64,000 nucleotides of DNA, taken from assembly GCA_017307355.1 (NCBI GenBank), contig JAFKFG010000016.1, positions 62,001-126,000 on the forward strand, in the 5' to 3' direction. Below are positions 10,825-25,239 of the stretch, one piece after another; position 1 is the first letter of the stretch; the number at the start of each line of letters is the position of its first letter. Below the pieces are notes generated by a model. That model was given only the letters and a program-made list of their open reading frames with translations. It was not told where the DNA came from and did not search any database. This stretch comes from Alphaproteobacteria bacterium (GTDB lineage: Bacteria; Pseudomonadota; Alphaproteobacteria; Micropepsales; Micropepsaceae). Made by a program: the position numbers and the translations under genes.

Positions 10825-12000
10825 ATGCGCCACAACCTGCTTTTCCTGTCGGGCGACGCCAGGCTGGTCGAACGGCTGGAGGCCGCGCTCTCGGCCGATT
10901 GCGCCGTGATGGCGGTCGATCCGCGCGGACAGGACAGCGCCGCCGTGGCGGCCCGGTTCCGGCCGCTGGCCGTCATCATCGATACCGGCGCCCATAGCGG
11001 CGCGAAGACCATCCTGGAACGCATGGCGGCGGTGCGGGCCCAGTTTCCCGACCTGCCATTGATCGCCATCGGCGATGAAATGAGCGCCCAGATGATCCTG
11101 GCCGCTTTTCGCGCCGGGGTGGACGATTTCATCGATCGCGATGCCGCGGATGGAGAAATCCGCAACGCGGTGATGTCCCGCCTGCGCGGCAAGGACACCC
11201 ATGACGGCGCGGGCATTCTCGTGAGCGTTCTCAGCCCCGCGCCCAGCAACGAAGATGCCGATCTCGCCCTCAATATCGCCAGCCTGCTGGCGTCCGCCTC
11301 GCGCGAACGGCGCGTGCTGCTGCTGGACCTTTCCCTGCCGGTGACCCCCGCCCATACTGCGTTGGGCCTGGAGTTCACTTTCACCTTGACCGCGGCCCTG
11401 CGCGACATGGCGCGGTTGGATCGGGCTTTTCTGGATTCCGCTTTGGCGCGAACCGAGAATACCGGCCTTTACGTGCTGCCGCTGACGGATGACGAAAACG
11501 ATGCCGCGCTGCCGCAGCCGCGCGACCTGACGGTCCTGCTGCAGATTCTTCGCTCGCTGTTCGATGCCGTGGTGGTGCATTGGGGCGCCTTCTCCCGCCA
11601 GGCAGTGCGCGCCGGCGCCGTGGGCGGCACGATCCTGGTGGGCTGCGATCAGCGTTTTTCCTCGGTCCGCAACGCCAAGTCTTTTTTTCAGAATCTGCAT
11701 GCGGCGGAACTCGGCAGCGAGCCGATCCTGGCCGTCCATCATCTCGATGCCGGGATGATGCCCTCGCCCGGCGACATTGTCGAAGCGGTCGGCGCGCGCG
11801 CCAGCCTTGTCCTGCGCGCGAACTGGAACACGCTGGCGCTGGCGCATAATCGCGGCCGCCCGCTCGCGCTGATGCCACCGTCGCCATATGGCGACGCCTT
11901 GCGCATGCGGCTGGCCGAGCTGGGACTACTGCCCCAGGCCCAACCCGGCAACGTCGCCGGTAAATTGCTGCACTGGATCAACCGCACGAGGGCCGGATGA
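10825..12000 (+). CDS. cpaE: CpaE/TadZ-like pilus assembly protein with degenerate P-loop
   Basis: 391 residues. The N-terminal third is an atypical receiver domain (LLFLSGDARLVERLEAAL, FRPLAVIIDTGA, AGVDDFIDRDA) and the rest is a MinD/ParA-like ATPase fold. CpaE/TadZ places the Tad machine at the cell pole. The usual deviant Walker A (KGGVGATT type) after the domain start is replaced by LSPAPSNED, although the following strand (RRVLLLDLSLP) is kept, so ATP binding is probably lost. The gene starts 2 nt after cpaC and its last 4 nt overlap the cpaF start (ATGA). Confidence 0.88.
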   Translation: MRHNLLFLSGDARLVERLEAALSADCAVMAVDPRGQDSAAVAARFRPLAVIIDTGAHSGAKTILERMAAVRAQFPDLPLIAIGDEMSAQMILAAFRAGVDDFIDRDAADGEIRNAVMSRLRGKDTHDGAGILVSVLSPAPSNEDADLALNIASLLASASRERRVLLLDLSLPVTPAHTALGLEFTFTLTAALRDMARLDRAFLDSALARTENTGLYVLPLTDDENDAALPQPRDLTVLLQILRSLFDAVVVHWGAFSRQAVRAGAVGGTILVGCDQRFSSVRNAKSFFQNLHAAELGSEPILAVHHLDAGMMPSPGDIVEAVGARASLVLRANWNTLALAHNRGRPLALMPPSPYGDALRMRLAELGLLPQAQPGNVAGKLLHWINRTRAG

Positions 12001-13223
12001 GCGCCCTGCCTTACGCCGCACCGGCCGGCAATGTGGACGATATTCAGGTATCGGACCAATATCAGGACATGAAATTCCGGGTATTCGAGGTCACGCTCGA
12101 ATATCTGGACCGGCGCGGCGTCACCGGCGACACCATCCAGCATGCCGCCCTGCTGGACGAAATCGCCCGCGCCATCTCCATCGTGCTGGGTTCGCGCGGG
12201 CTGGCGCTGAACACGCCGGAACGCTCGCAGCTCATTCTTGACGTGGTCAACGAAATCACCGGCTTCGGCCCGCTGCAGCCGCTGCTCGACGATCCGGGCA
12301 TCGACGATGTCATCGTCAACGGTCCCCGCACTATCTATGTCGAGCGCAAGGGCGAGCTGGAGCCCGTCAATGCCCGCTTCCGCGACATGGATCATCTGAT
12401 GAATGTGATCCAGCGCATCGTCGCGCCGATCGGCCGGCGGATCGACGAAGCCAATCCGTATGTCGATGGGCGCCTGCCCGACGGTTCACGGCTCAATGTG
12501 GTCATCCCTCCCGTGGCCCTGGACGGCCCTCACGTCTCGATCCGCAAATTCAAGGCCGTGCCCTTCACGGGCGAGGATCTGGTGCGCAACGGCAGCATGA
12601 CGGCGGAAGGGCTTCGCTATCTGTCGGGCGCGGTGCGCAACCGGCGCAATATCCTGATCTCGGGCGGCACCGGTTCGGGCAAGACCACGCTTCTCAATGT
12701 TCTCAGTTCCTATGTCGGAGCCAAGGAACGCATCGTCACCATCGAGGACACCGCGGAATTGCGGTTGCAGATGGCACATGTGGTGCGGATGGAAACGCGC
12801 GCCGCCACCATGGACGGCGCTCGCGAGATCACCGCCCGCGACCTGTTGCGCAACGCCCTGCGCATGCGCCCCGACCGCATCATCCTGGGCGAAGTGCGCT
12901 CGCATGAAGCGATCGAAGTGCTTCAGGCGATGGGCACCGGCCATGACGGCTCGATGGCGACCATCCATGCCAATGGCACGTCGGACGCCCTGGAACGGCT
13001 GGAGATGCTGGTGGGGCTGCACGGCTTTTCCAGCGATCTGCGCTCGGTCCGGCGCTTCATCGTCAGCGCGGTGGACATCGTGGTCCAGACCATGCGCGGC
13101 GCGGGCGGGCGCCGTTCGGTTTCCAGCGTGGTCGAGATCACCGGACTGGAGGGCTCGCACTATATGCAACGCGAAATCTATCGCGGCCCCGAACAGGCCG
13201 AACGCAAAGGCGCCGTGCCATGA
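11997..13223 (+). CDS. cpaF: Tad pilus assembly ATPase CpaF (TadA)
   Basis: 408 residues, a type II/IV secretion ATPase. The Walker [10 protein letters not shown] starts at residue 223, the Walker B region is [11 protein letters not shown], and the conserved histidine box reads [14 protein letters not shown]. Earlier come the N-terminal helical part and the [21 protein letters not shown] signature of the CpaF group. It is the cytosolic motor that powers pilin assembly. It overlaps cpaE by 4 nt and tadB by 4 nt, consistent with coupled translation. Confidence 0.97.
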
Positions 13224-14131
13224 CGTCGCTGGCGGCCAACCTGATTGCCTTGTCATGCCTTGCAGGAGCCGGGCTGCTGGTCGCGCATCTGGCCGCCGCG
13301 CATCTTCGCATGGCCGATCTGCGGCGCCTCAAGGATCTGCTGGCGATGCATGCAGAGAAAACAGCCCAACCGCGCGCAGAAGCCGCGCGCCGGCTGCCGT
13401 CATTTCTGGAACGCAAGCTCGCGCGCGCCGGATGGGAGCCATCTGGGCGCCAGCTGATGATCGGCGCGGCGGCCATGGCTCTGGCGATCCTGGCGGCCGC
13501 TGCGATTGCCGGGCTGCTGGCGGGTTTTCTATCGGCGGTCACTTTGGCTTTGCTGGTTCTGGTCGCGTTGGAATATCGCGCCGGCGTGCGCGTGCGGCTT
13601 TTATCGGAGTGCATGCTGGGATTCCTGGAACGGATGCGCCAGCTTCTGTCCGTGGGCAACAGCCTGTCGGTGGCCCTGGAGCGGGCGGTCGAGAATTCGC
13701 CCCCCATCGTGACGGAGTGCCTGGCCCCCACCCTGCGCCGCATTGCCAACGGCAGCGGCGTGGCCGAAAGCCTGGAGCGCGCCGCCGCCGAATTGGATCT
13801 TTACGAACTCCATCTCCTGGCCACCGCCACCCGCACCAATCTGCGCTTCGGCGGCTCGATGACGGCAATCCTGCGCAACATCATCGAAAATATCCGCCGC
13901 CGCGCGTCGATCGAGCGCGAGCTTCGGGCCAACACCACCCAAGTCCGTGCCAGCGCCTGGGTGCTGGCCCTGCTGCCGGTACTGGTCGCGACCCTGGTGA
14001 TCCTCACCAACCGCGATTATTCGCGCTGGTTCCTGGCGACCGAAAAAGGTCATTACATGCTCGCCTACGCGGTCTTCTCCCAGATCGCGGGCGCCGTATG
14101 CATGCGCATGATCATACGGACCCGGTACTGA
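13220..14131 (+). CDS. tadB: Tad inner-membrane platform protein TadB
   Basis: 303 residues with a T2SSF domain: transmembrane segments near 5-25, 75-120 and 250-300, and a cytoplasmic helical domain with GFLERMRQLLSVGNSLSVALERA and LDLYELHLLATATRTNLRFGGSM. TadB and TadC together form the GspF-like platform that couples CpaF to pilin extrusion. The start overlaps the cpaF stop; tadC starts 1 nt after its stop. Confidence 0.93.
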   Translation: MTSLAANLIALSCLAGAGLLVAHLAAAHLRMADLRRLKDLLAMHAEKTAQPRAEAARRLPSFLERKLARAGWEPSGRQLMIGAAAMALAILAAAAIAGLLAGFLSAVTLALLVLVALEYRAGVRVRLLSECMLGFLERMRQLLSVGNSLSVALERAVENSPPIVTECLAPTLRRIANGSGVAESLERAAAELDLYELHLLATATRTNLRFGGSMTAILRNIIENIRRRASIERELRANTTQVRASAWVLALLPVLVATLVILTNRDYSRWFLATEKGHYMLAYAVFSQIAGAVCMRMIIRTRY

Positions 14132-14132
14132 C

Positions 14133-15077
14133 ATGACCGATATCCTTTCCTGGCTGCTCTGCATGGCCTGCGTTCTGACCGGCGGGCTCGCACTGGCGCG
14201 CGGCGTTCGTTTCTATGCGGCCGACCAGACGGTGGCGCGGCGCTTCCGCCAGCATATTTCGCCGTCCCTGGCGCCGCCATGGCCCGCGATGCGCGGCCGT
14301 GCCTTGCTGGAGAATTTCGGCCGCATGGTGGCCGGCACGGACTCAGTGCGCGGCCTGCAGGGGCTACTGCTTCAAGCCGGCTTCCTTTCGTCCGGGGCGG
14401 TCTTTCTGTTTGCGGGCCTGCGCCTGATCGCCGCCCTGACGGTGGCGGGCATGACACTGCTTCCCCACTGGCTGCACGACGGCAACATCGGCTCCGGCGA
14501 TGCGGCCATGGCATTCTTCCTGGGCTTTTTCGTCTATCGCGCCTTCAGCATCTTCCTGAAGCTGCGCAGCGAGACGCGCCAGCGCGAGATTCGCCGCGAG
14601 CTTCCTTATATACTGGACCTGCTGCTGATGGTGCTGGACAGCGGCGTCAGCATCGACCAGGCGCTGCAGCATGTCAGCCTTCAGGTGGCGCGGGTCGCGC
14701 CGCTTTCCGGCCAGATCCTGGTCCGCTATATCGCCGATACCGAAGACGGCGTGCCGTATGACAAGGCGCTGGACCGGCTGGCGCAAAGGTTGGCGATCAG
14801 CGAAGGCCGGGACTTCGCCGGCCTGCTGAAGCAGAATCTTTTCCAGGGCGGCGAACTGGCCCAGCCCCTGCGCCGCCTGGCGGGCGATATCAGCGAAACC
14901 CGGTTGTCCCTGGCGCGGGAACAGATGGGCCGCAAATCCGTGCTGCTGACCTTGGTGATGCTGGCCTTCTTCATGCCGGTGCTTCTGATCGCGATCGCCG
15001 CGCCCGCCGTTTCCGACGTTCTGAGTACCATGCATCACGTCGCGCAGGACATGGCCGCTTCGAGGAGCCGAAAATGA
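14133..15077 (+). CDS. tadC: Tad inner-membrane platform protein TadC
   Basis: 314 residues, the second T2SSF-type platform protein. Hydrophobic segments lie near 3-20, 85-135 and 270-300, and the cytoplasmic part reads ELPYILDLLLMVLDSGVSIDQALQHV with a later ISEGRDFAGLLKQNLFQGGELAQPL. It follows tadB directly and overlaps tadD by 4 nt. Confidence 0.93.
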   Translation: MTDILSWLLCMACVLTGGLALARGVRFYAADQTVARRFRQHISPSLAPPWPAMRGRALLENFGRMVAGTDSVRGLQGLLLQAGFLSSGAVFLFAGLRLIAALTVAGMTLLPHWLHDGNIGSGDAAMAFFLGFFVYRAFSIFLKLRSETRQREIRRELPYILDLLLMVLDSGVSIDQALQHVSLQVARVAPLSGQILVRYIADTEDGVPYDKALDRLAQRLAISEGRDFAGLLKQNLFQGGELAQPLRRLAGDISETRLSLAREQMGRKSVLLTLVMLAFFMPVLLIAIAAPAVSDVLSTMHHVAQDMAASRSRK

Positions 15078-15808
15078 AACGCGGATTGTTCTGCCTGCTG
15101 GGATTGCTGGCATCCGGATGCGCCGCATCGGGGTCCATGACGACGCGAACCGAAACCGCGCGAGCCGAAACCGCGCTGACAGGACCGGCCGCCGCCATGA
15201 GCCCGGCCGCCCAGGCCGACCTTTATCTGGGAATTGTCGACGGCCTGATCCGGCAGCAGCGCTATGAGGCCGCCATCGCCTTCCTGGCCAAATTCCAGAA
15301 GACCGAGACGCTCACGCCTCGCTACCACAAGCTGGCCGGCGATGCCTTGTCGGGTGCGGGCCGCATCGACGAAGCGATCGCAGCCTATCGGCAGGCTCTG
15401 ACCTCGGATCTCGCGCCACAGGCCTATAACGGGATCGGCCGCGCGCTTTCGATCAGGGGCGATTGGGTTCTGGCAGCGGAAAATTTCCGTCAGGCCGCCA
15501 CTCTCGATCCCGCCAACGCGACCTATCTCAACAATTTCGGCTACGCGCAGCTGAAGCAGGATTTCCGCGGCCCGGCCCTGGCACCGGTGGTGAGCGAGCT
15601 TCAGCGGGCGCATGAACTGGATCCCGATTCCAATCTGATACGCGCCAATCTGGCGCTGGCACTGTCGCTGTCCGGGTCCCGTGCGCAGTTCCTCGCCTTT
15701 CTCGACGCCATTCCCGATCCCATTCGTCGCCAGGATATCGCCGCCTTTTCCGCGAACTGGGCTCCGGCCTGGACCGGCGACACCGGCATCAAGAAAGGCA
15801 CGCCATGA
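15074..15808 (+). CDS. tadD: TadD-type TPR lipoprotein
   Basis: 244 residues. A lipoprotein signal (MKRGLFCLLGLLASGC, lipid cysteine C16) precedes several TPR-like helix pairs (YEAAIAFLAKFQK, KLAGDALSGAGRIDEAIAAYRQAL, GIGRALSIRGDWVLAAENFRQA). TadD is thought to act as a pilotin or assembly factor for the secretin at the outer membrane. The fit to TadD is by operon position and architecture. It overlaps the next small gene by 4 nt (ATGA). Confidence 0.88.
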   Translation: MKRGLFCLLGLLASGCAASGSMTTRTETARAETALTGPAAAMSPAAQADLYLGIVDGLIRQQRYEAAIAFLAKFQKTETLTPRYHKLAGDALSGAGRIDEAIAAYRQALTSDLAPQAYNGIGRALSIRGDWVLAAENFRQAATLDPANATYLNNFGYAQLKQDFRGPALAPVVSELQRAHELDPDSNLIRANLALALSLSGSRAQFLAFLDAIPDPIRRQDIAAFSANWAPAWTGDTGIKKGTP

Positions 15809-16056
15809 AGCATCCTCTCGCTCCCATGCTTGGCGCGCTCTTGCTCGGCCTTGGCGGATGCACCGGGGACGTCAAGCCGTCTCCCACCTCCGATCAGGTG
15901 ATCGCGGCGCAGCTTCGCGCGCGCGGCGCTCACGGCGACATGGACGGGCGCGAAGCCGGCGCCATCGCGGACGCCTATCGCCAGCAGATCGCCAAACCAG
16001 CCCAAGCCTCCCGCCCCCCGATGTCCGGACCATCGGACAGCGGCATCAACCCCTAG
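15805..16056 (+). CDS. Small lipoprotein in the Tad operon
   Basis: 83 residues. The N-terminus (MKHPLAPMLGALLLGLGGC) is a lipoprotein signal with the lipid cysteine at position 19. The mature part is hydrophilic with a helical middle (SDQVIAAQLRARG) and a proline-rich tail, and no family is recognised. It is translationally coupled to tadD and lies 24 nt before the pilin gene, so a role in the pilus apparatus is likely, but only position supports it. Confidence 0.75.
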   Translation: MKHPLAPMLGALLLGLGGCTGDVKPSPTSDQVIAAQLRARGAHGDMDGREAGAIADAYRQQIAKPAQASRPPMSGPSDSGINP

Positions 16057-16080
16057 CCTCATTGTCAAAGGAGAATTGCC

Positions 16081-16275
16081 ATGCACATGAAGTTGAAAAC
16101 CCTGGCGCAAAGATTCATCGCCGATGAAAGCGGCCTGTCGGCGGTCGAATATGGCCTTCTGGCCGCCGGCATTGCCGTCGGCCTTTGGACCATCATCTCC
16201 CAGATGGGAACCGACCTTCGAGCGATCTTCACGTCGGTGAAGACCGATATCGCCGGCGCCGCTCCCGCTGCCTGA
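16081..16275 (+). CDS. flp: Flp/Fap-type major pilin
   Basis: 64 residues. A short basic leader ends in ...DESG, followed by LSAVEYGLLAAGIAVGLWTI: prepilin cleavage after G18 would leave glutamate E23 at +5 and tyrosine Y24 at +6, as in Flp pilins. The mature 46-residue protein is almost all one hydrophobic helix with a short tail, so it is the fibre subunit. It has a strong AGGAGA site. No CpaA/TadV prepilin peptidase gene is in the window. Confidence 0.95.
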   Translation: MHMKLKTLAQRFIADESGLSAVEYGLLAAGIAVGLWTIISQMGTDLRAIFTSVKTDIAGAAPAA

Positions 16276-16293
16276 AACAGCGGAACGCCGGAC

Positions 16294-16746
16294 GTGAGAC
16301 GGATCTTTTCCAGGGCAGGAAGAGCGGGCGGGCGATTGCGCGGCGATACCCGCGCGACCACGGCGGTGGAGTTCGGCATCGTGGCACCGCTGCTCTTTGC
16401 CGTCATGTTCGGCATTCTCGCCTTCGGCATACAATTCGCCACCCGCATCGCCGTCACCTATGCGGCGACGGAGGGCGGCCGCGCCGCCATCGGTGGCCTT
16501 GACGACACCGAACGCGAAAGCCTGGCGCGGGCCGCCATCACCCGCGTGCTGACGGCCCTGTCGCCCCTGGTCGATCCCAGCAAGGCGGCGGTCAATGTCG
16601 TTCAGGCGGACGAAGCCAGCGATCACAAGATCGATATCAGCATCACCTACAACGACACGCGTTTTGCCCTGTTGCCTTTTGTTCCCGATTTCAGCGCGCT
16701 CAACCCCGTCACGGTCGAATATTATGTCACCGATCCATCCGGCTGA
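16294..16746 (+). CDS. tadE: TadE-like pseudopilin
   Basis: 150 residues from a GTG start at 16294. The leader ends RGDTRA and is followed by TTAVEFGIVAPLLFAVMFGI, a pseudopilin cleavage site with glutamate at +5, then a periplasmic domain with a VEYYVTDPSG end. It belongs to the TadE minor pilin family needed for Flp pilus biogenesis. Its final 23 nt overlap the start of the histidine-kinase gene in another frame. Confidence 0.88.
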   Translation: MRRIFSRAGRAGGRLRGDTRATTAVEFGIVAPLLFAVMFGILAFGIQFATRIAVTYAATEGGRAAIGGLDDTERESLARAAITRVLTALSPLVDPSKAAVNVVQADEASDHKIDISITYNDTRFALLPFVPDFSALNPVTVEYYVTDPSG

Positions 16747-18811
16747 ACGCGCGCCGCCCGACGCAGATCAGGGCATCCTGCCGGGGCTGCGGCGCATTCT
16801 CGGCTCGGCGTCACCGCGCGCCTGTCATGGCGCCCTGGTGCAGACGGCGCGGCTGCTGGAAGAGGAGTTCGGCTTTTCCATCCTGATGGCGGCGGAAATC
16901 GCCCCCGGACCCGCGATCGTCTGGCAAAGCGACGGTCCCTTGCGCGAAAACGGGCCGGCGCTTCGTGCATGGCTCCAGCGCGCCAGCCAGCATCCCGGAC
17001 GCTGCCTGGCATTCGGCGATGCCGCCGCCGGCATGGTGATGACCGGCGCGCCGGGCCCCGGCGCGGCCATGATCGCGCTGGTCGCAGATGCGATCCTGCT
17101 TCCGCAGAAGCTGGAAAGCGCGATGCGCGACGTGGCCGAATTCACCGCCCGCCACCTGCACCATCTGCGCACGGGCGAGGAAAATATGCGCCGCCGCCAG
17201 CGGCTGGATGCCGAAGGCGCCCGGGATGCCGCCCTGGTGCGCGCCAGCGCCGATCTGGTCTGGGAGGCCGAAGGAGACGGCATCATTCATGTGACGCATG
17301 TCTTTCACGACCGCCGCGACCTGGCGCGACTGATCGAAGGCCGGGCCTTGCGCGACATTCCGGCGGGTGCCCTCGATCTGCAAAGGTCCGCGGAAAAGGG
17401 ACAGATCCTGCGCGCCCAGCGCATCGCTTTGCCCGGATGGGACGAGCCGCTGTTTCTCACCGCCTGCCCCAGCCCGGGAACGTCGGCGCCATTCCCGCTG
17501 CGTGGCACCATCGCCACGGCCCCGGATAATGCGGCGGAAAAGCTGACGATCGATGCCCGCACCCTGGAAACCATTCTGGCGTCGCATCGGCGCGAGGAGC
17601 AATTGCGGCGGGAAACCGAAACCATGATGCTGGGCCTGCGCGTGCTCCTGGGAGAAGCCCCCTTCCGCGAGAAGCTGGAGCAATTGGCGCGCCATCTGGC
17701 GGGCGCAATCGATTGCGACGATGTCCGGCTGATCCTGCTGCGGCCCGGCGAGGACCCGCGCCTGGTGCTGCCCGACGCCATGGCGGCGGACGCGCGCCTG
17801 CTCGGACAGATCGACGCGCTGGGCCAACAGCGCCTTCTCACTCTGCTGCCGGCGGCTAGCGCCGACACTGCGCGCCTGCGCGAAAACCTGGCCATGCGCG
17901 ACGGCGATCTGGTTCTGATCGCGCTGCCGTCTGCGGCGGAACGCTATTATCTTCTCTGCCGGGCGCGGCGCAGCCTCAATCCCGACGATCATGGCGTTGC
18001 CGAGCGGATATCGTTGCTGCTGCAACAGGCATTCCTGCTGCAGACCGACCAGAAGCGAATGATCCACACCGCCAAATTGTCCGCGCTGGGCCAGATGTCC
18101 ACCGGCATCGCGCATGAATTGCGCCAGCCGCTCAACGCCATCTCGATCGCCGCTCAGAATATCGAGCTGATGGTCAGCCTGGGAAAAGCGGGACCGGAGC
18201 TGTTGAAGGAAAAGACCGACCGGATCATGGCGCAGATCGACCGGGCCTGCAAAGTGATGGATCGCATGCGCCGCTTCGGCCGACGGACCGCCGGCGAGTA
18301 TAAGCCCGCGCCTCTCGCCGCCATCGCCAGGAGCGCCCGCTCGCTGATGGATCCGTTGGTCCTGTCTTCCGGAATTGCCATCGACATCGACATTGCGGAC
18401 GATCTCAAAGCCGTCGCCGACGAATTGGAGATCGAGCAGGTTCTGGTCAACCTGATCCAGAATGCGGCGGATGCGCGGGACGCCAAGCCCGGCGGCCGCA
18501 TCCGGATCTGGTCCGAAGACGATCCGGACGATCCCGGCGCGCTGCGCCTTCATGTCGACGATAACGGGCCGGGTTTCCCGCCGGACGTCCTCGCCCATGC
18601 GCTGGATGCATTCTTCACCACCAAGCCGGAAGGCAAGGGAACGGGCCTGGGTCTCTCCATCGCCCATTCCATCCTGCGCGAACATGGCGGACGCATTCTT
18701 GTCGGCAATGGCGCATTGGGCGGCGGACGGATCACCTTGGTCCTGCGCCGTCCGGCGGCGCAGGTCCTGCCATTCGTGTCCCGGTCGCCGGAACGGGATG
18801 GCGCGCCATGA
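16724..18811 (+). CDS. Sensor histidine kinase at the end of the Tad operon
   Basis: 695 residues, no transmembrane segment seen, so probably cytosolic. The N-terminal 400 residues look like GAF/PAS-type sensory modules (for example CHGALVQTARLLEEEFGFSI). HisKA follows with QMSTGIAHELRQPLNAIS, phospho-histidine H464. The HATPase has N box NLIQNAADARDA, G1 DDNGPGFP and G2 GKGTGLGLSIAHSI. The ATG at 16724 overlaps the tadE end by 23 nt, suggesting coupling. The likely partner is the OmpR-type regulator at 19158. Confidence 0.92.
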   Translation: MSPIHPAERAPPDADQGILPGLRRILGSASPRACHGALVQTARLLEEEFGFSILMAAEIAPGPAIVWQSDGPLRENGPALRAWLQRASQHPGRCLAFGDAAAGMVMTGAPGPGAAMIALVADAILLPQKLESAMRDVAEFTARHLHHLRTGEENMRRRQRLDAEGARDAALVRASADLVWEAEGDGIIHVTHVFHDRRDLARLIEGRALRDIPAGALDLQRSAEKGQILRAQRIALPGWDEPLFLTACPSPGTSAPFPLRGTIATAPDNAAEKLTIDARTLETILASHRREEQLRRETETMMLGLRVLLGEAPFREKLEQLARHLAGAIDCDDVRLILLRPGEDPRLVLPDAMAADARLLGQIDALGQQRLLTLLPAASADTARLRENLAMRDGDLVLIALPSAAERYYLLCRARRSLNPDDHGVAERISLLLQQAFLLQTDQKRMIHTAKLSALGQMSTGIAHELRQPLNAISIAAQNIELMVSLGKAGPELLKEKTDRIMAQIDRACKVMDRMRRFGRRTAGEYKPAPLAAIARSARSLMDPLVLSSGIAIDIDIADDLKAVADELEIEQVLVNLIQNAADARDAKPGGRIRIWSEDDPDDPGALRLHVDDNGPGFPPDVLAHALDAFFTTKPEGKGTGLGLSIAHSILREHGGRILVGNGALGGGRITLVLRRPAAQVLPFVSRSPERDGAP

Positions 18812-18841: not shown

Positions 18842-19039
18842 TTATTCGCGTTTCTGTTCGGAGCGGGCGCGCCATTCCTGCAGCAATGCGATCAGCAATA
18901 TGCGCAACTCCGTGTCGTCGAGCGAACGGATCGCAAGCGGCAACGCCGTGTGAAAGACCAGAGGGCCAAACGGCTCGTCGGCGGACATCCCGCCCGGCCC
19001 CGCCGCATCGTGATATGGCATTCCCAACCTTTCGATCAT
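18842..19039 (-). CDS. Possible small protein opposite the kinase-regulator gap
   Basis: 65 residues from the ATG at 19039, or 59 from the one at 19021. The second half (SLDDTELRILLIALLQEWRARSEQK) is a plausible amphipathic helix, and the opposite-strand frames here look non-coding. No family is recognised. It is convergent with the kinase gene and divergent from the response regulator, and may be a small regulator of the pair or a chance frame. Confidence 0.4.
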   Translation of the reverse strand: MIERLGMPYHDAAGPGGMSADEPFGPLVFHTALPLAIRSLDDTELRILLIALLQEWRARSEQKRE

Positions 19040-19157: not shown

Positions 19158-19847
19158 ATGACATCCGCTTCCCAAACCGCCGCTCCGGGCGATGCCCGTT
19201 TGCTGATCGTGGACGACGACAGTGAAATCCGCGCCGAGCTCGGCGCCTATCTGGGCGCGAACGGCTTTGGCGTGGCAACTGCCGCGAACGGCGCGGAAGC
19301 CGAACGCCACCTGTCGGATCGTGCCTTCGACGTCATCCTGCTGGATTTGTGGCTGGGCAACGAAAACGGCTTCGATGTGCTGCGCCGCCTGCGCCAGACC
19401 CGCAACACGCCCTGCATCATGGTGACGGCCCAGGATGAAGTGACGGATACAATCGTGGGACTGGAACTGGGCGCCGACGATTATCTGGTCAAGCCGGTCA
19501 ATCTGCGCGAGTTGCTGGCCCGCATCCGCGCCCTGATCCGGCGCAGCGGCGCAACCGAGGAAAGCGGTCCGTCATCCGCCCCGCCGCCGAAGGCCGATGA
19601 CGAAGCGAACTGGAAATTCGATCCCATGCGACGCAGCCTGCGCGCGGCCACTCACCGTACTGACGCCGACCAGACCCGCGACGAGCTTTGCCGCCGGGTA
19701 TTCAACCGCGAATGGAGCCCGTATGACCGGGGCCTGGACGGCATCATCGTCAAGCTCCGCCGCAAGCTGGAGCCCAATCCGGACAATCCGCTGGTGATCA
19801 AGACCGTGCGCGGGCGCGGCTATGTCTTCACAGGTTTCGTTCGATAA
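19158..19847 (+). CDS. OmpR-type response regulator with shortened winged-helix domain
   Basis: 229 residues. The receiver is intact: acidic pair DDD near 19-21, phospho-acceptor D63 (VILLDLWLG), T in MVTAQ and K in LVKPVN. The C-terminal domain has canonical strands (WKFDPMRRSL) and recognition part (SPYDRGLDGIIVKLRRKL, RGRGYVF), but the alpha-1 segment between them is only HRTDADQ. The domain is about 78 residues against about 96 usually. Another frame reads PLTVLTPT there, the usual text before alpha-1, so a deletion plus frame change is likely. DNA binding may be altered. Confidence 0.88.
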   Translation: MTSASQTAAPGDARLLIVDDDSEIRAELGAYLGANGFGVATAANGAEAERHLSDRAFDVILLDLWLGNENGFDVLRRLRQTRNTPCIMVTAQDEVTDTIVGLELGADDYLVKPVNLRELLARIRALIRRSGATEESGPSSAPPPKADDEANWKFDPMRRSLRAATHRTDADQTRDELCRRVFNREWSPYDRGLDGIIVKLRRKLEPNPDNPLVIKTVRGRGYVFTGFVR

Positions 19848-21528
19848 GCGACAGCGCGCCATCCACCCCGACTTCGAAGCCGGCGTAAATGCGCCAGCCC
19901 TTGTCGCGACGCCCATAGGGCACGCGGTTCAGCGGCTTGGCCAATTCCCATGTCATGCTGGCGAGATTGTCGACCGTGACCCTTGCCCCCACGCCGGTGG
20001 AAATCAGCTCGCCATTCGGCTGCAGATCGCCATGCCGGTTATAGACCTTGGCATAGTCCAGCAACGGATAGGGCGTGACGCTGAAGCCATGCCCCAGGGC
20101 GATCCGGTATTCGGGCTGGAAGGAAAATCCGATGCCGCTGTCGCCGGAAATTTCCGACGTGTTGAAGCCGTGCCCGTAAGCCAGGCCGCCGAACGAGACT
20201 TCTTCCGACGCGATCAGGGAATTGGGGCTGTATTGGCCCAGGGCGCCGAATTTGAGCGTCACATTCTCCAACGGCTGCCATGCCAGCCTGCCCTCGGCGC
20301 GAATCTTGGCGAAACCGGGAATGGTGTGCAGGCGGGTATGCGGCTCGTGGGCGAAGCCGGCCAGGCCCTGCGTCAGGCGGACGGTGCCGCTGGCCCACAT
20401 ATCGGCAGAGACGGTCTCGCTGTAATCGCCGCCGATCTGGAGCGCGAGATTGCGGTCGCTGGCGAAATCGCCGATGCCAAGATGCGCCAGGCTGTAACGG
20501 GCATCGGCATAATAAAGTCCGCCCGTCAGATTGACGGTCTGTGACTTGCCGCGGATCAGCGGATAGGTGGCATTGGCGGCAAGGCGCGTGATGCGGCTAC
20601 GCACTTCATAGGGCCTAAGGCTGATGGCATCCAATGTCTGCGCCCAGGCGCCGTCGATGCCCAGCCTGAGACCGTTATCGCCCACCATCTGCGAATAACC
20701 CAGATCGTAGAAAGAAAAATTCTTCGGCTGCGGCGACAAAAGAGCCGCGACGGTGATCCGGTCGCCCTCGCCCAGAAGATTGTTGAATGAAGCGGTGGCG
20801 TAGAGCTGAAACGGCAGGGAATGAAGATTGGCGCGGTTGTCCAGATTGAGGCCCACGCTCACCCACTTCACCGCGGCGGACAACACCAGGCGCGTGGCCC
20901 CGGTTTGCGGATCCATGCCTTCGAATTTCGAACTCAGCGTCATGCCCGGGATGTCCTGGATGAGCAGGATCACCCGTTCCAGGGTGGCGCGCGTCAGCGG
21001 ATGCTCTTTCGTCAAAGGCGCCGCCATGCGTTCGACCAGCGCCTTGGTGCGTTCGCTATCGGCCGTCACCGCGACCGTGCCGACATAACCGTCGACCACC
21101 CGCACAACGAGAACACCGTCCGCGATCTTCTGGGCGGGAATGAAGGCCCGGCCCAGGGGATATCCCGCGCCGGCAATCAGTGCATTGACCTGATCCAGGG
21201 CCGGCTTGAGCGCGGAGACCGGAATCTTGCGGCCCTTCAACCTGTCGAACGCGGCGTTGATCTTCGCGTCCGGCAACAATCGGGCGCCGATCACCCGGAC
21301 ATGTTCGAAATGCAACGTGCCCCGTTCCTGGGCCGGAAGTTCGGCCTGCTGCGGCAATTGCGGCGCGGCGGGAGCCGGCATGCGCGGCGGAACCGGCGGG
21401 CTCAGCAGATGGCCGGGGTCCGGCACGGATAGGCGCGGCGGCGCACTCTGTGCCAGAACCGGCGTCGCAGTCATCAGCAGAAACGCGCAAAGCGCGGTGG
21501 AATTTCCGGTGCGGTGTTTCTTTTCCAT
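19828..21528 (-). CDS. TpsB/ShlB/FhaC-type outer-membrane transporter
   Basis: 566 residues. A signal peptide (to about 27) and a proline-rich stretch are followed by a POTRA domain (LHFEHVRVIGARLLPDAKI; GAGYPLGRAFIPAQKIADGVLVVRVVDG) and a 16-strand-type barrel with LRLGIDGAWAQT and the C-terminal RIYAGFEVGVDGAL. It would secrete a TpsA exoprotein across the outer membrane by two-partner secretion. No TpsA gene is adjacent. The start at 21528 begins the signal peptide. Its end overlaps the response-regulator end by 20 nt, tail to tail. Confidence 0.9.
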   Translation of the reverse strand: MEKKHRTGNSTALCAFLLMTATPVLAQSAPPRLSVPDPGHLLSPPVPPRMPAPAAPQLPQQAELPAQERGTLHFEHVRVIGARLLPDAKINAAFDRLKGRKIPVSALKPALDQVNALIAGAGYPLGRAFIPAQKIADGVLVVRVVDGYVGTVAVTADSERTKALVERMAAPLTKEHPLTRATLERVILLIQDIPGMTLSSKFEGMDPQTGATRLVLSAAVKWVSVGLNLDNRANLHSLPFQLYATASFNNLLGEGDRITVAALLSPQPKNFSFYDLGYSQMVGDNGLRLGIDGAWAQTLDAISLRPYEVRSRITRLAANATYPLIRGKSQTVNLTGGLYYADARYSLAHLGIGDFASDRNLALQIGGDYSETVSADMWASGTVRLTQGLAGFAHEPHTRLHTIPGFAKIRAEGRLAWQPLENVTLKFGALGQYSPNSLIASEEVSFGGLAYGHGFNTSEISGDSGIGFSFQPEYRIALGHGFSVTPYPLLDYAKVYNRHGDLQPNGELISTGVGARVTVDNLASMTWELAKPLNRVPYGRRDKGWRIYAGFEVGVDGALSLIERNL

Positions 21529-21635
21529 GCGCGCAGCATCGCAACGCACGGAACGGGAAAATACGAGGATTTGGCGAGATTAAGTGTACTCCTGCGCGTT
21601 TTTGTAAGCGTCTGTCGAGCGCGCAATAAGAAGGA

Positions 21636-21726: not shown

Positions 21727-22818
21727 CTAACGGCCGGTCAAACCGCCCAGCAGGCCGGTGAGCGAGCCGGCGCCAGCGCCGCCATTGGTGATGCTGCCGG
21801 TCAGGTCCGTCACCGTGTTGGTGACCGATCCCAGCACATTGGTGTTCGTCGGCGTGCCGGTGACGCCGCCGGTCAAGGTGGCGAGGACGGGGCTGACAAC
21901 AGGACCGACCACCGGAATGTTGCTGACGGTGCCGGTCACGCCGCCGAGAACGGAGCCAAGCGCGGGAACGCCGCTTCCGGTACCGCCAAGCGCGCCGGTC
22001 AAACCGCCCAGAAGATTGCCCGTCGCCGGCAAGCCGCCGCTGTCGAGCGCATTGCCGGCCGGGCTGGGGCCGGTGCCATTCGTGTAGCCGATCGCATTGC
22101 CGATCGGGGTTCCCACCGGCGCCAGCGCCGGATTGCCCGCGGGCACCACGGTGCCGAGGGTGCCGTCACCGCCTCCGGCCAGCGTACCGTTGACGCTGCC
22201 CTGATAGCCGACCAGCGCGCCGACAAAATCATTGCCGAACAGATTCTGCACCAGCCCGTTCGTGCCGGTGACGCCGGCCGGATTGGTCGAGTTGGACGGG
22301 TCGATGACCGGAAGCTTGTCCAGCGCCTGCCCGACGCCAGGCAGCAGCGGATTCGAATCCGGGCCGCCGATGATATTGCCCAGCAGACCTTGCTGACCGC
22401 CGGCCAGCCTGGAAGGAACGATGCCGCCGGTGCCGACCGATTGCGTGACCGGATCGGGCGGATCGATCAGGTCTTCGATCAGGCCGCCCGCGCCGGTCAG
22501 GCCCAGGCCGGCATTGGCCGACAAAGGATTGGGGCCAGCCGGACCCGTTGCACCTGTGGCTCCCGTTGCGCCCGAGGCCCCCGTCGCACCTTGAGGGCCC
22601 TGCGGCCCCGTCGCGCCCGTGGCCCCGGTCGCGCCGGTAGCACCTGTGGAACCTGTGGATCCGGCTGTACCATCAGCGCCGTTCAAGGCCTGCTGATTGG
22701 TGGTGGTTCCGCCCTGTCCCAATTCGGAACCGTAATACATCTTGTCGGCGCAGGCCGAGAGCGAGACGGCGCACAGGGCCACCACGCTGACCTTCCCTAG
22801 CAATTTGTTGAATCGCAT
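21727..22818 (-). CDS. Collagen-like repeat lipoprotein
   Basis: 363 residues. A lipoprotein signal with lipobox LSAC (C23) leads to about 50 residues of Gly-X-Y triplets, many GAT and some GPQ (residues about 55-105), as in bacterial collagen-like proteins. A long Gly/Pro/Val/Leu-rich tail of degenerate GG(L/V)TG-like repeats follows. It is likely exported and lipid-anchored, the collagen part forming a trimeric rod. Start at 22818 with AGGGAGA. It lies between the TpsB gene and divergent tadG in the pilus locus, hinting at surface adhesion. Not a known named gene. Confidence 0.85.
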
Positions 22819-22895
22819 TTTTATCTCCCTCATGTCGGCCGGCGACATCGCCCATGGCCTGCTGCACGGGGCGGGAGGTTAGGCAAATGCTAAGG

Positions 22896-23019: not shown

Positions 23020-24747
23020 ATGTCGGGACCGAGCCTGAAACCGTGCGCGCTCTGCAAGCGCTTCCTTCGCGACCAAAGGGGCGTCGCCTCGATCGTGGCC
23101 GCATTGCTGATGCTGCTGGGGCTCGGCTTCGGCGTTCTCACATTCGATGTCGGCCACCTCTATCTGGAAAAGCGCCGCCTGCAGGGCGCGGTCGATGCCG
23201 CCGCGCTGGCCGCGGCGGGCGATCCGGCCAACGCGGCGGCGATTGCGACCCGCGTGTTGACGAACAATGGCTATGCGCAGGTGGCCACGGTCGTCACTGG
23301 CGCTTACACGCCCGATCCCGCCCTTGCCGTCGCAAGCCGGTTCAACGCCGATCCGGCCGCGCAGAAGAACGCGGTGCGCGTGACCCAGACGGTTTCGGTC
23401 CAGGGATATCTGGCGACCGTCATCGGCGGCGGGCTTTTGTCCAATGTCACGGCCACGGCCACGGCCGCCCAGGCGCCCCTGGTTTCCTTTTCCGCGGGCA
23501 CGGGGTTGGCCAGCCTCACCAACGGCCAGCTCAATGCCGTTCTCGGCGGCCTTTTGGGCGCCACGCTCACACTGTCCCTGGTCAACTATCAGGCGCTCGC
23601 CAGCACCAATGTGGACGCGCTCACATTTCTGGATCAGTTGGCCACCCAGGCCGGCGTCACCGCGGGAACCTATGGCGACCTCGCCAATACCAGCGTCACC
23701 ATGGGCCAGATGGTCGCCGCCATCCGCACCGCCCTCAACATTCATCCCAGCGGCAACAACAACGCGGCGTTGGATGCGCTCAACCTGATCGCATTGCAGA
23801 CGCCCGCCGGCGCGGCGGCCGCCACCGGCAATATCGTCAACACCGGCCTGTGGCAGAAACGGCAAATCGGAACGATCGTCCAACAGGTGCCGGGCCAGGT
23901 CTCGCTCAACCTGTTCGATCTGGTCGGCGCCATGGCCCGGGCCTATGGCAGCGGCCATCTGGTCAATGCCGGCACCGCGATCAGCGTGCCCGTCACCAAC
24001 AGTTCGGTGATCACGCATCTGTCCCTCGGGGCGCCCATGACCAGCGTGGCGCTGGCCCGCGTGGGGACCAGCATTTCCACAGCACAGACCCGGCTGACGC
24101 TCACCGCCACCGTCACCGATGTCAGCCTCGGCATCCCGGGATTCCTCAACGCTTCGATTTCGCTGCCGCTTTATGTGACCGTGGCATCGGGCACCGCCAC
24201 GGTGACCGCGATTCCGTGCCAGGCGGGCGGCACCATGGCCACCATCACCGCGGCGGCCCAGGCCGCCACGGCACAGATCGGCGTCGTCAGCGATACCGAC
24301 CTCCAGAATTTCGCCAGCAACCCAGTCGTCCAGCCGGCCGGCATCGTCACCATCTCCGTCCTGGGAATTCCGGTGGCGGTCACCGCAAGCGGTTCATCGT
24401 CGGTGGCCGCGGGCACGCCCATCCAGGAGAATTTCACCCAAGCCGACATCACTGCGGGCACGGTGAAATCCGCGTCCGGCAGCGGCGCCGGTAACATCAT
24501 TTCCGGCCTGGTGCCCAACATGACCTTGTCCACCACCCTGCTTTCGAGCGGCGGCCTCCTGACCAGCACCATCAACAACACATTGAACGTCACGGTGCTG
24601 CCGCTGCTGCGCCCGGTGCTGGTCAGCCTTCTGTCCTCGCTCGATGCGCCGGTCGATACGCTGCTCAGAAGCCTCGGCCTCAGGCTGGGGGTGATGGATA
24701 CCGTCGTTCACGGCGTGCGCTGCGGCACGCCAACCCTCGTGACTTAG
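23020..24747 (+). CDS. tadG: TadG-like pilus assembly protein
   Basis: 575 residues. The N-terminus has CKRFLRDQRGVASIVAALLMLLGLGFGVL, a TadE/TadG-type pseudopilin-like membrane anchor, then YLEKRRLQGAVDAAALAAAG, the conserved TadG helix. The remaining 500 residues are a large Ala/Thr/Val-rich periplasmic domain of low complexity with few charged residues. TadG-like proteins act in Flp pilus assembly or anchoring. It is separated from the main Tad operon by the regulator, TpsB and collagen-like genes, and is followed by a receiver gene after 9 nt. Confidence 0.85.
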   Translation: MSGPSLKPCALCKRFLRDQRGVASIVAALLMLLGLGFGVLTFDVGHLYLEKRRLQGAVDAAALAAAGDPANAAAIATRVLTNNGYAQVATVVTGAYTPDPALAVASRFNADPAAQKNAVRVTQTVSVQGYLATVIGGGLLSNVTATATAAQAPLVSFSAGTGLASLTNGQLNAVLGGLLGATLTLSLVNYQALASTNVDALTFLDQLATQAGVTAGTYGDLANTSVTMGQMVAAIRTALNIHPSGNNNAALDALNLIALQTPAGAAAATGNIVNTGLWQKRQIGTIVQQVPGQVSLNLFDLVGAMARAYGSGHLVNAGTAISVPVTNSSVITHLSLGAPMTSVALARVGTSISTAQTRLTLTATVTDVSLGIPGFLNASISLPLYVTVASGTATVTAIPCQAGGTMATITAAAQAATAQIGVVSDTDLQNFASNPVVQPAGIVTISVLGIPVAVTASGSSSVAAGTPIQENFTQADITAGTVKSASGSGAGNIISGLVPNMTLSTTLLSSGGLLTSTINNTLNVTVLPLLRPVLVSLLSSLDAPVDTLLRSLGLRLGVMDTVVHGVRCGTPTLVT

Positions 24748-24756
24748 GAGACAACG

Positions 24757-25239
24757 ATGCCCGCACCACCGCTTCAAACTTCCCGCCCCGCATCCGCAAG
24801 GCTGCGGACCAATCCGGAAAGCCTCAGGGTCTTCATCTGCGACGACGATATGGATTTCGCCACCGAGCTGGCGTCCGCGCTGACCGCCAGCGGCTTCGAG
24901 GCCCGCACCCTGGCGCATGGCCGGACTCCCAAGGAGATCTTCGAGCTGTTCGCGCCGGACATCGTGCTGCAGGATATTTTCATGCCCCCGCCCGACGGCT
25001 ATGAGATGATCAATCACATAGCCCAGAACATCCGGCACAAATATGTCTCGCTGGCACTGATCTCGGGCGCCGACCACGCGCAACTGGAAACGGCGCAGCA
25101 TTTCTGCGCCGCGCGGGGGATCGTCCCCGTCGCCATATTGCAGAAGCCGGTGCGGCTGAGCGATATCCTGAATGTCTGCATGACCCACCCCCGGCGCCGC
25201 ACGGCCGGCCTGGCGGAATGTCCCCAACCGAATGCGTGA
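24757..25239 (+). CDS. Single-domain response regulator
   Basis: 160 residues. After a 22-residue leader comes a receiver domain: ICDDDMDFATELASAL with the acidic cluster, VLQDIFMPPPDG with the likely phospho-acceptor aspartate near 73, and LQKPVRLSDI with the conserved lysine. There is no output domain, only a short basic tail. It presumably acts through protein contact. It has a TTAGGAG site and follows tadG by 9 nt, so it belongs with the pilus locus. Confidence 0.9.
   Translation: MPAPPLQTSRPASARLRTNPESLRVFICDDDMDFATELASALTASGFEARTLAHGRTPKEIFELFAPDIVLQDIFMPPPDGYEMINHIAQNIRHKYVSLALISGADHAQLETAQHFCAARGIVPVAILQKPVRLSDILNVCMTHPRRRTAGLAECPQPNA

Follow-up and report, generated by a model that had tools for sequence, protein, structure and literature searches.

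An OmpR/PhoB-type response regulator linked to Tad pilus genes and lacking the alpha-1 region of its winged helix

Introduction

A response regulator gene in an alphaproteobacterium of the Micropepsaceae raises the question of whether an OmpR/PhoB-type regulator has lost a part of its DNA-binding domain, and what such a protein could still do. The gene lies in the window, by which is meant the whole stretch of 64,000 nucleotides analysed (contig JAFKFG010000016.1, positions 62,001 to 126,000). A preliminary description had reported an effector domain about 18 residues shorter than usual, with helix alpha-1 missing, and had explained it by a deletion plus a frame change that kept the end in frame. 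Helix alpha-1 belongs to the core of the winged helix. Among the titles and abstract openings surveyed, no account was found of an OmpR-type regulator without alpha-1, nor of this Tad-linked regulator.

Results

Domain layout of the regulator

The features of the gene are as follows.

19158..19847, plus strand: response regulator gene of the OmpR/PhoB type, 229 aa, with a shortened effector domain (ORF from ATG; Pfam)
19203..19529, plus strand: receiver domain, residues 16-124, with Asp19-21, Asp63 and Lys112 all present (PF00072, E 1.3e-28; invariant alignment columns)
19611..19646, plus strand: retained start of the effector domain, WKFDPMRRSLRA, residues 152-163 (67% identity to 12 Parvibaculum-family orthologues)
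19647..19667, plus strand: junction ATHRTDA, residues 164-170, in place of about 25 residues (beta-4, alpha-1 and loop) of the relatives (alignment gap; profile scores)
19648-19671, in another frame than the regulator ORF: PLTVLTPT
19677..19703, plus strand: alpha-2 of the winged helix, residues 174-182, including DELCRR (AlphaFold2; 83% identity over residues 171-184)
19731..19769, plus strand: alpha-3, the recognition helix, residues 192-204 (AlphaFold2; 76% identity over residues 185-226)
19797..19829, plus strand: wing, the C-terminal beta hairpin, residues 214-224 (AlphaFold2)

The receiver is complete, covering positions 2-111 of the 111 in the PF00072 profile. Its Asp19-21, Asp63 and Lys112 fall in invariant columns; we take Asp63 to be the phosphoacceptor, and Asp19-21 and Lys112 to be the conserved acidic residues and the conserved Lys. 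A variable linker joins the receiver to the effector domain. The C-terminal part belongs to the Trans_reg_C family (PF00486, 45.3 bits against a curated cut-off of 26.2); the match at residues 173-224, however, covers only profile positions 26-77 of 77. A complete winged helix consists of an N-terminal sheet, alpha-1, alpha-2, alpha-3 and the wing, and here beta-4 and alpha-1 are absent in both the alignment and the model. The regulator ORF is open through all 229 codons, with neither a premature stop nor an unrestored frameshift as a sign of a pseudogene.

Size and rarity of the gap

The length of the affected interval was counted from the first R of the RR in FDPMRR to the R of RDELC. It is 15 residues in the regulator and 32 or 33 in all 88 homologues that span it (32 in 51 and 33 in 37), and therefore 17-18 residues are missing. 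These 88 were taken from 117 scored loci, after leaving out 29 in which the match did not reach both ends, and two genomes are represented twice among them. The shortening that had been described is thus borne out in size; the loss of alpha-1 is also borne out, although the loss extends to beta-4 and to the loop before alpha-2. The residues L169, E173 and L177 (numbering of the Parvibaculum indicum regulator), which are near-invariant in 37 aligned proteins, are all gaps in the regulator.

Incomplete domains of this kind are rare. Within the same genome, 12 of the 13 Trans_reg_C domains begin at profile position 1-4, and only that of the regulator begins at 26. Across 12 genomes, 118 of 121 begin at position 6 or earlier; the three late starters are the regulator and two domains in open frames of merely 42 and 55 aa. 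No intact second copy of the regulator was seen in the assembly, where the best other match among those listed is 40% identical.

Orthologues and genomic neighbourhood

The closest orthologues are found in the Parvibaculum group, where the regulator has matches at E 1e-45 in 12 of 40 family genomes; the nearest is 64% identical across the aligned part. All 12 retain the segment lost in the regulator. This segment is one of the most uniform in these proteins, and they agree fully in the stretch VPLTTAECDLLIELVAHEG; the short form is therefore not a family trait. Close orthologues sharing the short domain had been named in advance as the observation that could overturn the deletion. Since no short domain occurs in any of the 88 spanning homologues or of the 12 Parvibaculum-family orthologues, a stable short family was ruled out. 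Compared with the 12 orthologues, the receiver is 65% identical and the part before the gap 67%; after the gap the values are 83% (residues 171-184) and 76% (residues 185-226). The receiver and the recognition helix are intact, as originally stated.

The gene stands beside a histidine kinase and a Tad cluster.

11997..16746, plus strand: Tad (Flp) pilus genes upstream, encoding a T2SSE ATPase (TadA-like), two T2SSF proteins (TadB/C-like), a TPR protein and a TadE-like protein (Pfam; Parvibaculum-group matches)
16724..18811, plus strand: histidine kinase (HisKA, HATPase), the probable partner; ORF open from 16595, with a putative start at 16724 (Pfam)

The Tad ATPase, TadB/C-like, TPR, TadE-like and kinase genes give single-frame matches to Parvibaculum, with a common gene order, and the kinase is 33-35% identical to the one beside the Parvibaculum-group regulators. 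The regulator is the best match of the Parvibaculum Tad-linked regulator and shares its neighbourhood of Tad genes and kinase; it is the orthologue of the OmpR/PhoB-type regulator that, together with a histidine kinase, ends a Parvibaculum Tad cluster. The identity between it and the Parvibaculum-group regulator (for example L032 in Parvibaculum indicum or L108 in genome G357) is 53-64% by different measures. They have the receiver, the C-terminal half and the neighbourhood in common, whereas only the Parvibaculum-group protein keeps beta-4, alpha-1 and the loop. The arrangement is also different: kinase and regulator point in the same direction in the window, separated by 346 bases, whereas they are tail to tail (convergent) in the Parvibaculum-group loci.

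Several other reading frames lie nearby. Between kinase and regulator is a small minus-strand ORF (18842-19021; 59 aa from an inner ATG). Its longer reading has no Pfam match, and a search of the genus's other 68 genomes gave no relative. A minus-strand ShlB/FhaC-type transporter gene (19828-21549; POTRA_2 and ShlB) overlaps the end of the regulator with its own end by 20 bases. A minus-strand protein with collagen-like repeats follows (21727-22848), and a similar reading is also present near the Parvibaculum-group loci. A receiver-only response regulator (24757-25239) comes directly after the gene of a Tad-like protein (23020-24747).

Searches of 69 genomes of the genus, at E 1e-45 for the regulator and E 1e-40 for the kinase, recovered only the window's own genome and none of the other 68; the pair is therefore species-specific among those genomes. 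This absence suggests that the two genes were acquired from a Parvibaculum-like lineage or share their inheritance with one. In a sample of 385 genomes from the class, only two others matched the regulator. The IMG/VR search for its relatives gave no match, and plasmid matches were all below 60% identity among the matches listed, up to a limit of 5000 records. A 16S gene, sought in the assembly to identify the organism, was not found.

Structure modelling

The AlphaFold2 model of the window protein (37 sequences) has a mean pLDDT of 74.7, and residues 153-168 are below 50. It contains no helix between the strand at 160-163 and alpha-2 at 174-182; alpha-2 and alpha-3 have a pLDDT of about 80. 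The Parvibaculum control, modelled with the same sequences, has a mean of 84.8 and a complete winged helix with alpha-1 at 171-182 (block means 91-92), alpha-2 at 190-198 and alpha-3 at 208-220. Modelling of the domain agrees with the absence of alpha-1, although AlphaFold2 is a poor judge of whether a domain is unfolded by a deletion and cannot tell whether the shortened domain folds. Fold searches grouped both models with full-length OmpR/PhoB regulators (PrrA, KdpE, MtrA), with a weaker best E-value for the short protein (4.3e-15) than for the control (1.9e-20). The known structures PrrA 1ys6, MtrA 2gwr, RegX3 2oqr and KdpE 4kny consist of a receiver and a winged helix and match over nearly the whole length in sequence and fold; their winged helix is complete, whereas the alpha-1 part is absent in the window protein.

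Origin of the gap

The peptide PLTVLTPT had been taken as the normal text before alpha-1, displaced into another frame. If so, a small indel in the beta-hairpin would have shifted the sequence into that frame, and a larger deletion would have restored it. Such a two-step history is tentative and is compatible with the other readings discussed below. The peptide does exist out of frame. It follows SLRA and precedes QTRDEL, which is the expected order, and its LTPT matches the beginning of alpha-1 with 7.9 bits; however, the complete 8-mer reaches only 3.2 bits when placed at the beta-4 register in a weighted profile of the 88 homologues. That score is reached by 0.5% of 108,508 stop-free window 8-mers at the fixed beta-4 register, and is equalled by 8.4% of 8,000 sampled window 8-mers at their own best register. 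In a cruder profile the peptide scored 0.16 bits, and 770 of the 108,508 8-mers scored at least as high. As the end of alpha-1, the in-frame ATHRT scored 2.7 bits (2.0% of window 5-mers are as good), and the longer ATHRTDAD was below zero there in the same profile. Codon usage gives the PLTV frame no advantage: it scores -2.9, and ATHRTDAD in the reading frame scores -0.4. A frame change needs two events where one suffices, and a single in-frame deletion of about 51-54 bases is preferred because fewer events are needed. It is the simpler account of the gap, and neither account is proven. From the preliminary description, a deletion relative to the relatives with its end in frame is supported, and the frame change is not established. 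A chimera with a paralogue was rejected, as the 24-base stretch 19648-19671 is single in the genome at up to 3 mismatches.

Discussion

The regulator carries a deletion relative to its relatives with ends that preserve the frame, its receiver and recognition helix are intact, and it is probably impaired, as had been suspected. The best explanation, to which we give a probability of roughly 0.6, is a recent lineage-specific deletion that left a phosphorylatable regulator with poor or no DNA binding. An internal loss of about 51-54 bases would have taken out beta-4, alpha-1 and the following loop in the lineage of the window. The receiver could probably still accept phosphate from the kinase and form dimers. 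Without alpha-1, the helical core that carries the recognition helix would not form normally, and DNA binding would therefore be abolished or greatly weakened. We infer that the deletion is real and recent, that the domain neither folds nor binds DNA as it should, and that the regulator targets the pilus genes. The loss looks recent because the retained parts show no decay; the undecayed flanks could mean a recent loss, a short form that still works, or an artefact. The suggestion of changed dimer contacts is unsupported, because the active dimer of OmpR/PhoB regulators forms through the receiver (PMC8541618), and this domain is intact here.

The main rival, which we consider unlikely, is an error of assembly or sequencing in which the true gene has its full length and the draft has dropped about 51-54 bases. 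The assembly is indeed a draft of 64 contigs, and no decay is seen in the sequence adjoining the gap; highly identical flanks are equally expected from a working regulator or from an assembly error. The out-of-frame PLTVLTPT could also be a leftover of the normal text, which would require a pair of indels close together, of the kind that a wrong join produces. Two further points count against the best explanation: the nearest orthologue is only 64% identical and so a distant guide to the ancestral text of the gene, and ends that fall in frame by chance occur one time in three. On the other hand, the total loss is a multiple of three, and between about 11.9 and 18.8 kb the Tad and kinase genes each align with their Parvibaculum counterparts in one unbroken frame, which argues against general indel noise. 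A collapse driven by repeats was rejected, since there are no direct repeats of at least 6 bases within 19560-19760 and the DNA fold in 19600-19740 is not unusual (z 0.64), with nothing to invite collapse.

A reshaped domain that still works, through new packing, protein contacts, the drawing off of phosphate or a dominant-negative partnership with other regulators, is improbable and ranks as the least likely of these readings. The open frame has been retained, conservation relative to the full-length orthologues is good in the receiver, alpha-2, the recognition helix and the wing, and alpha-2 and alpha-3 were modelled near pLDDT 80. However, recent loss explains the absence of decay equally well, the near-invariant columns fall in the lost segment, such a gap occurs in none of the 88 spanning homologues, and the only two other N-terminally incomplete domains among the 121 are those in very short open frames. 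We would put very little weight on a regulator that works without alpha-1 as a trimmed reader, in which alpha-2, the recognition helix and the wing are held by dimerised receivers.

The biological meaning depends on which reading is correct. A gap due to assembly error would be of note only as a warning for annotation. A protein that still bound DNA would call into question the view that the winged-helix core needs alpha-1. As it stands, the regulator can probably still receive a signal and no longer grip DNA, and it is a curiosity unless the assembly is mistaken. If the deletion is real, the species has probably uncoupled a Tad-linked sensor kinase from transcription, and the regulator would be a natural separation-of-function form.
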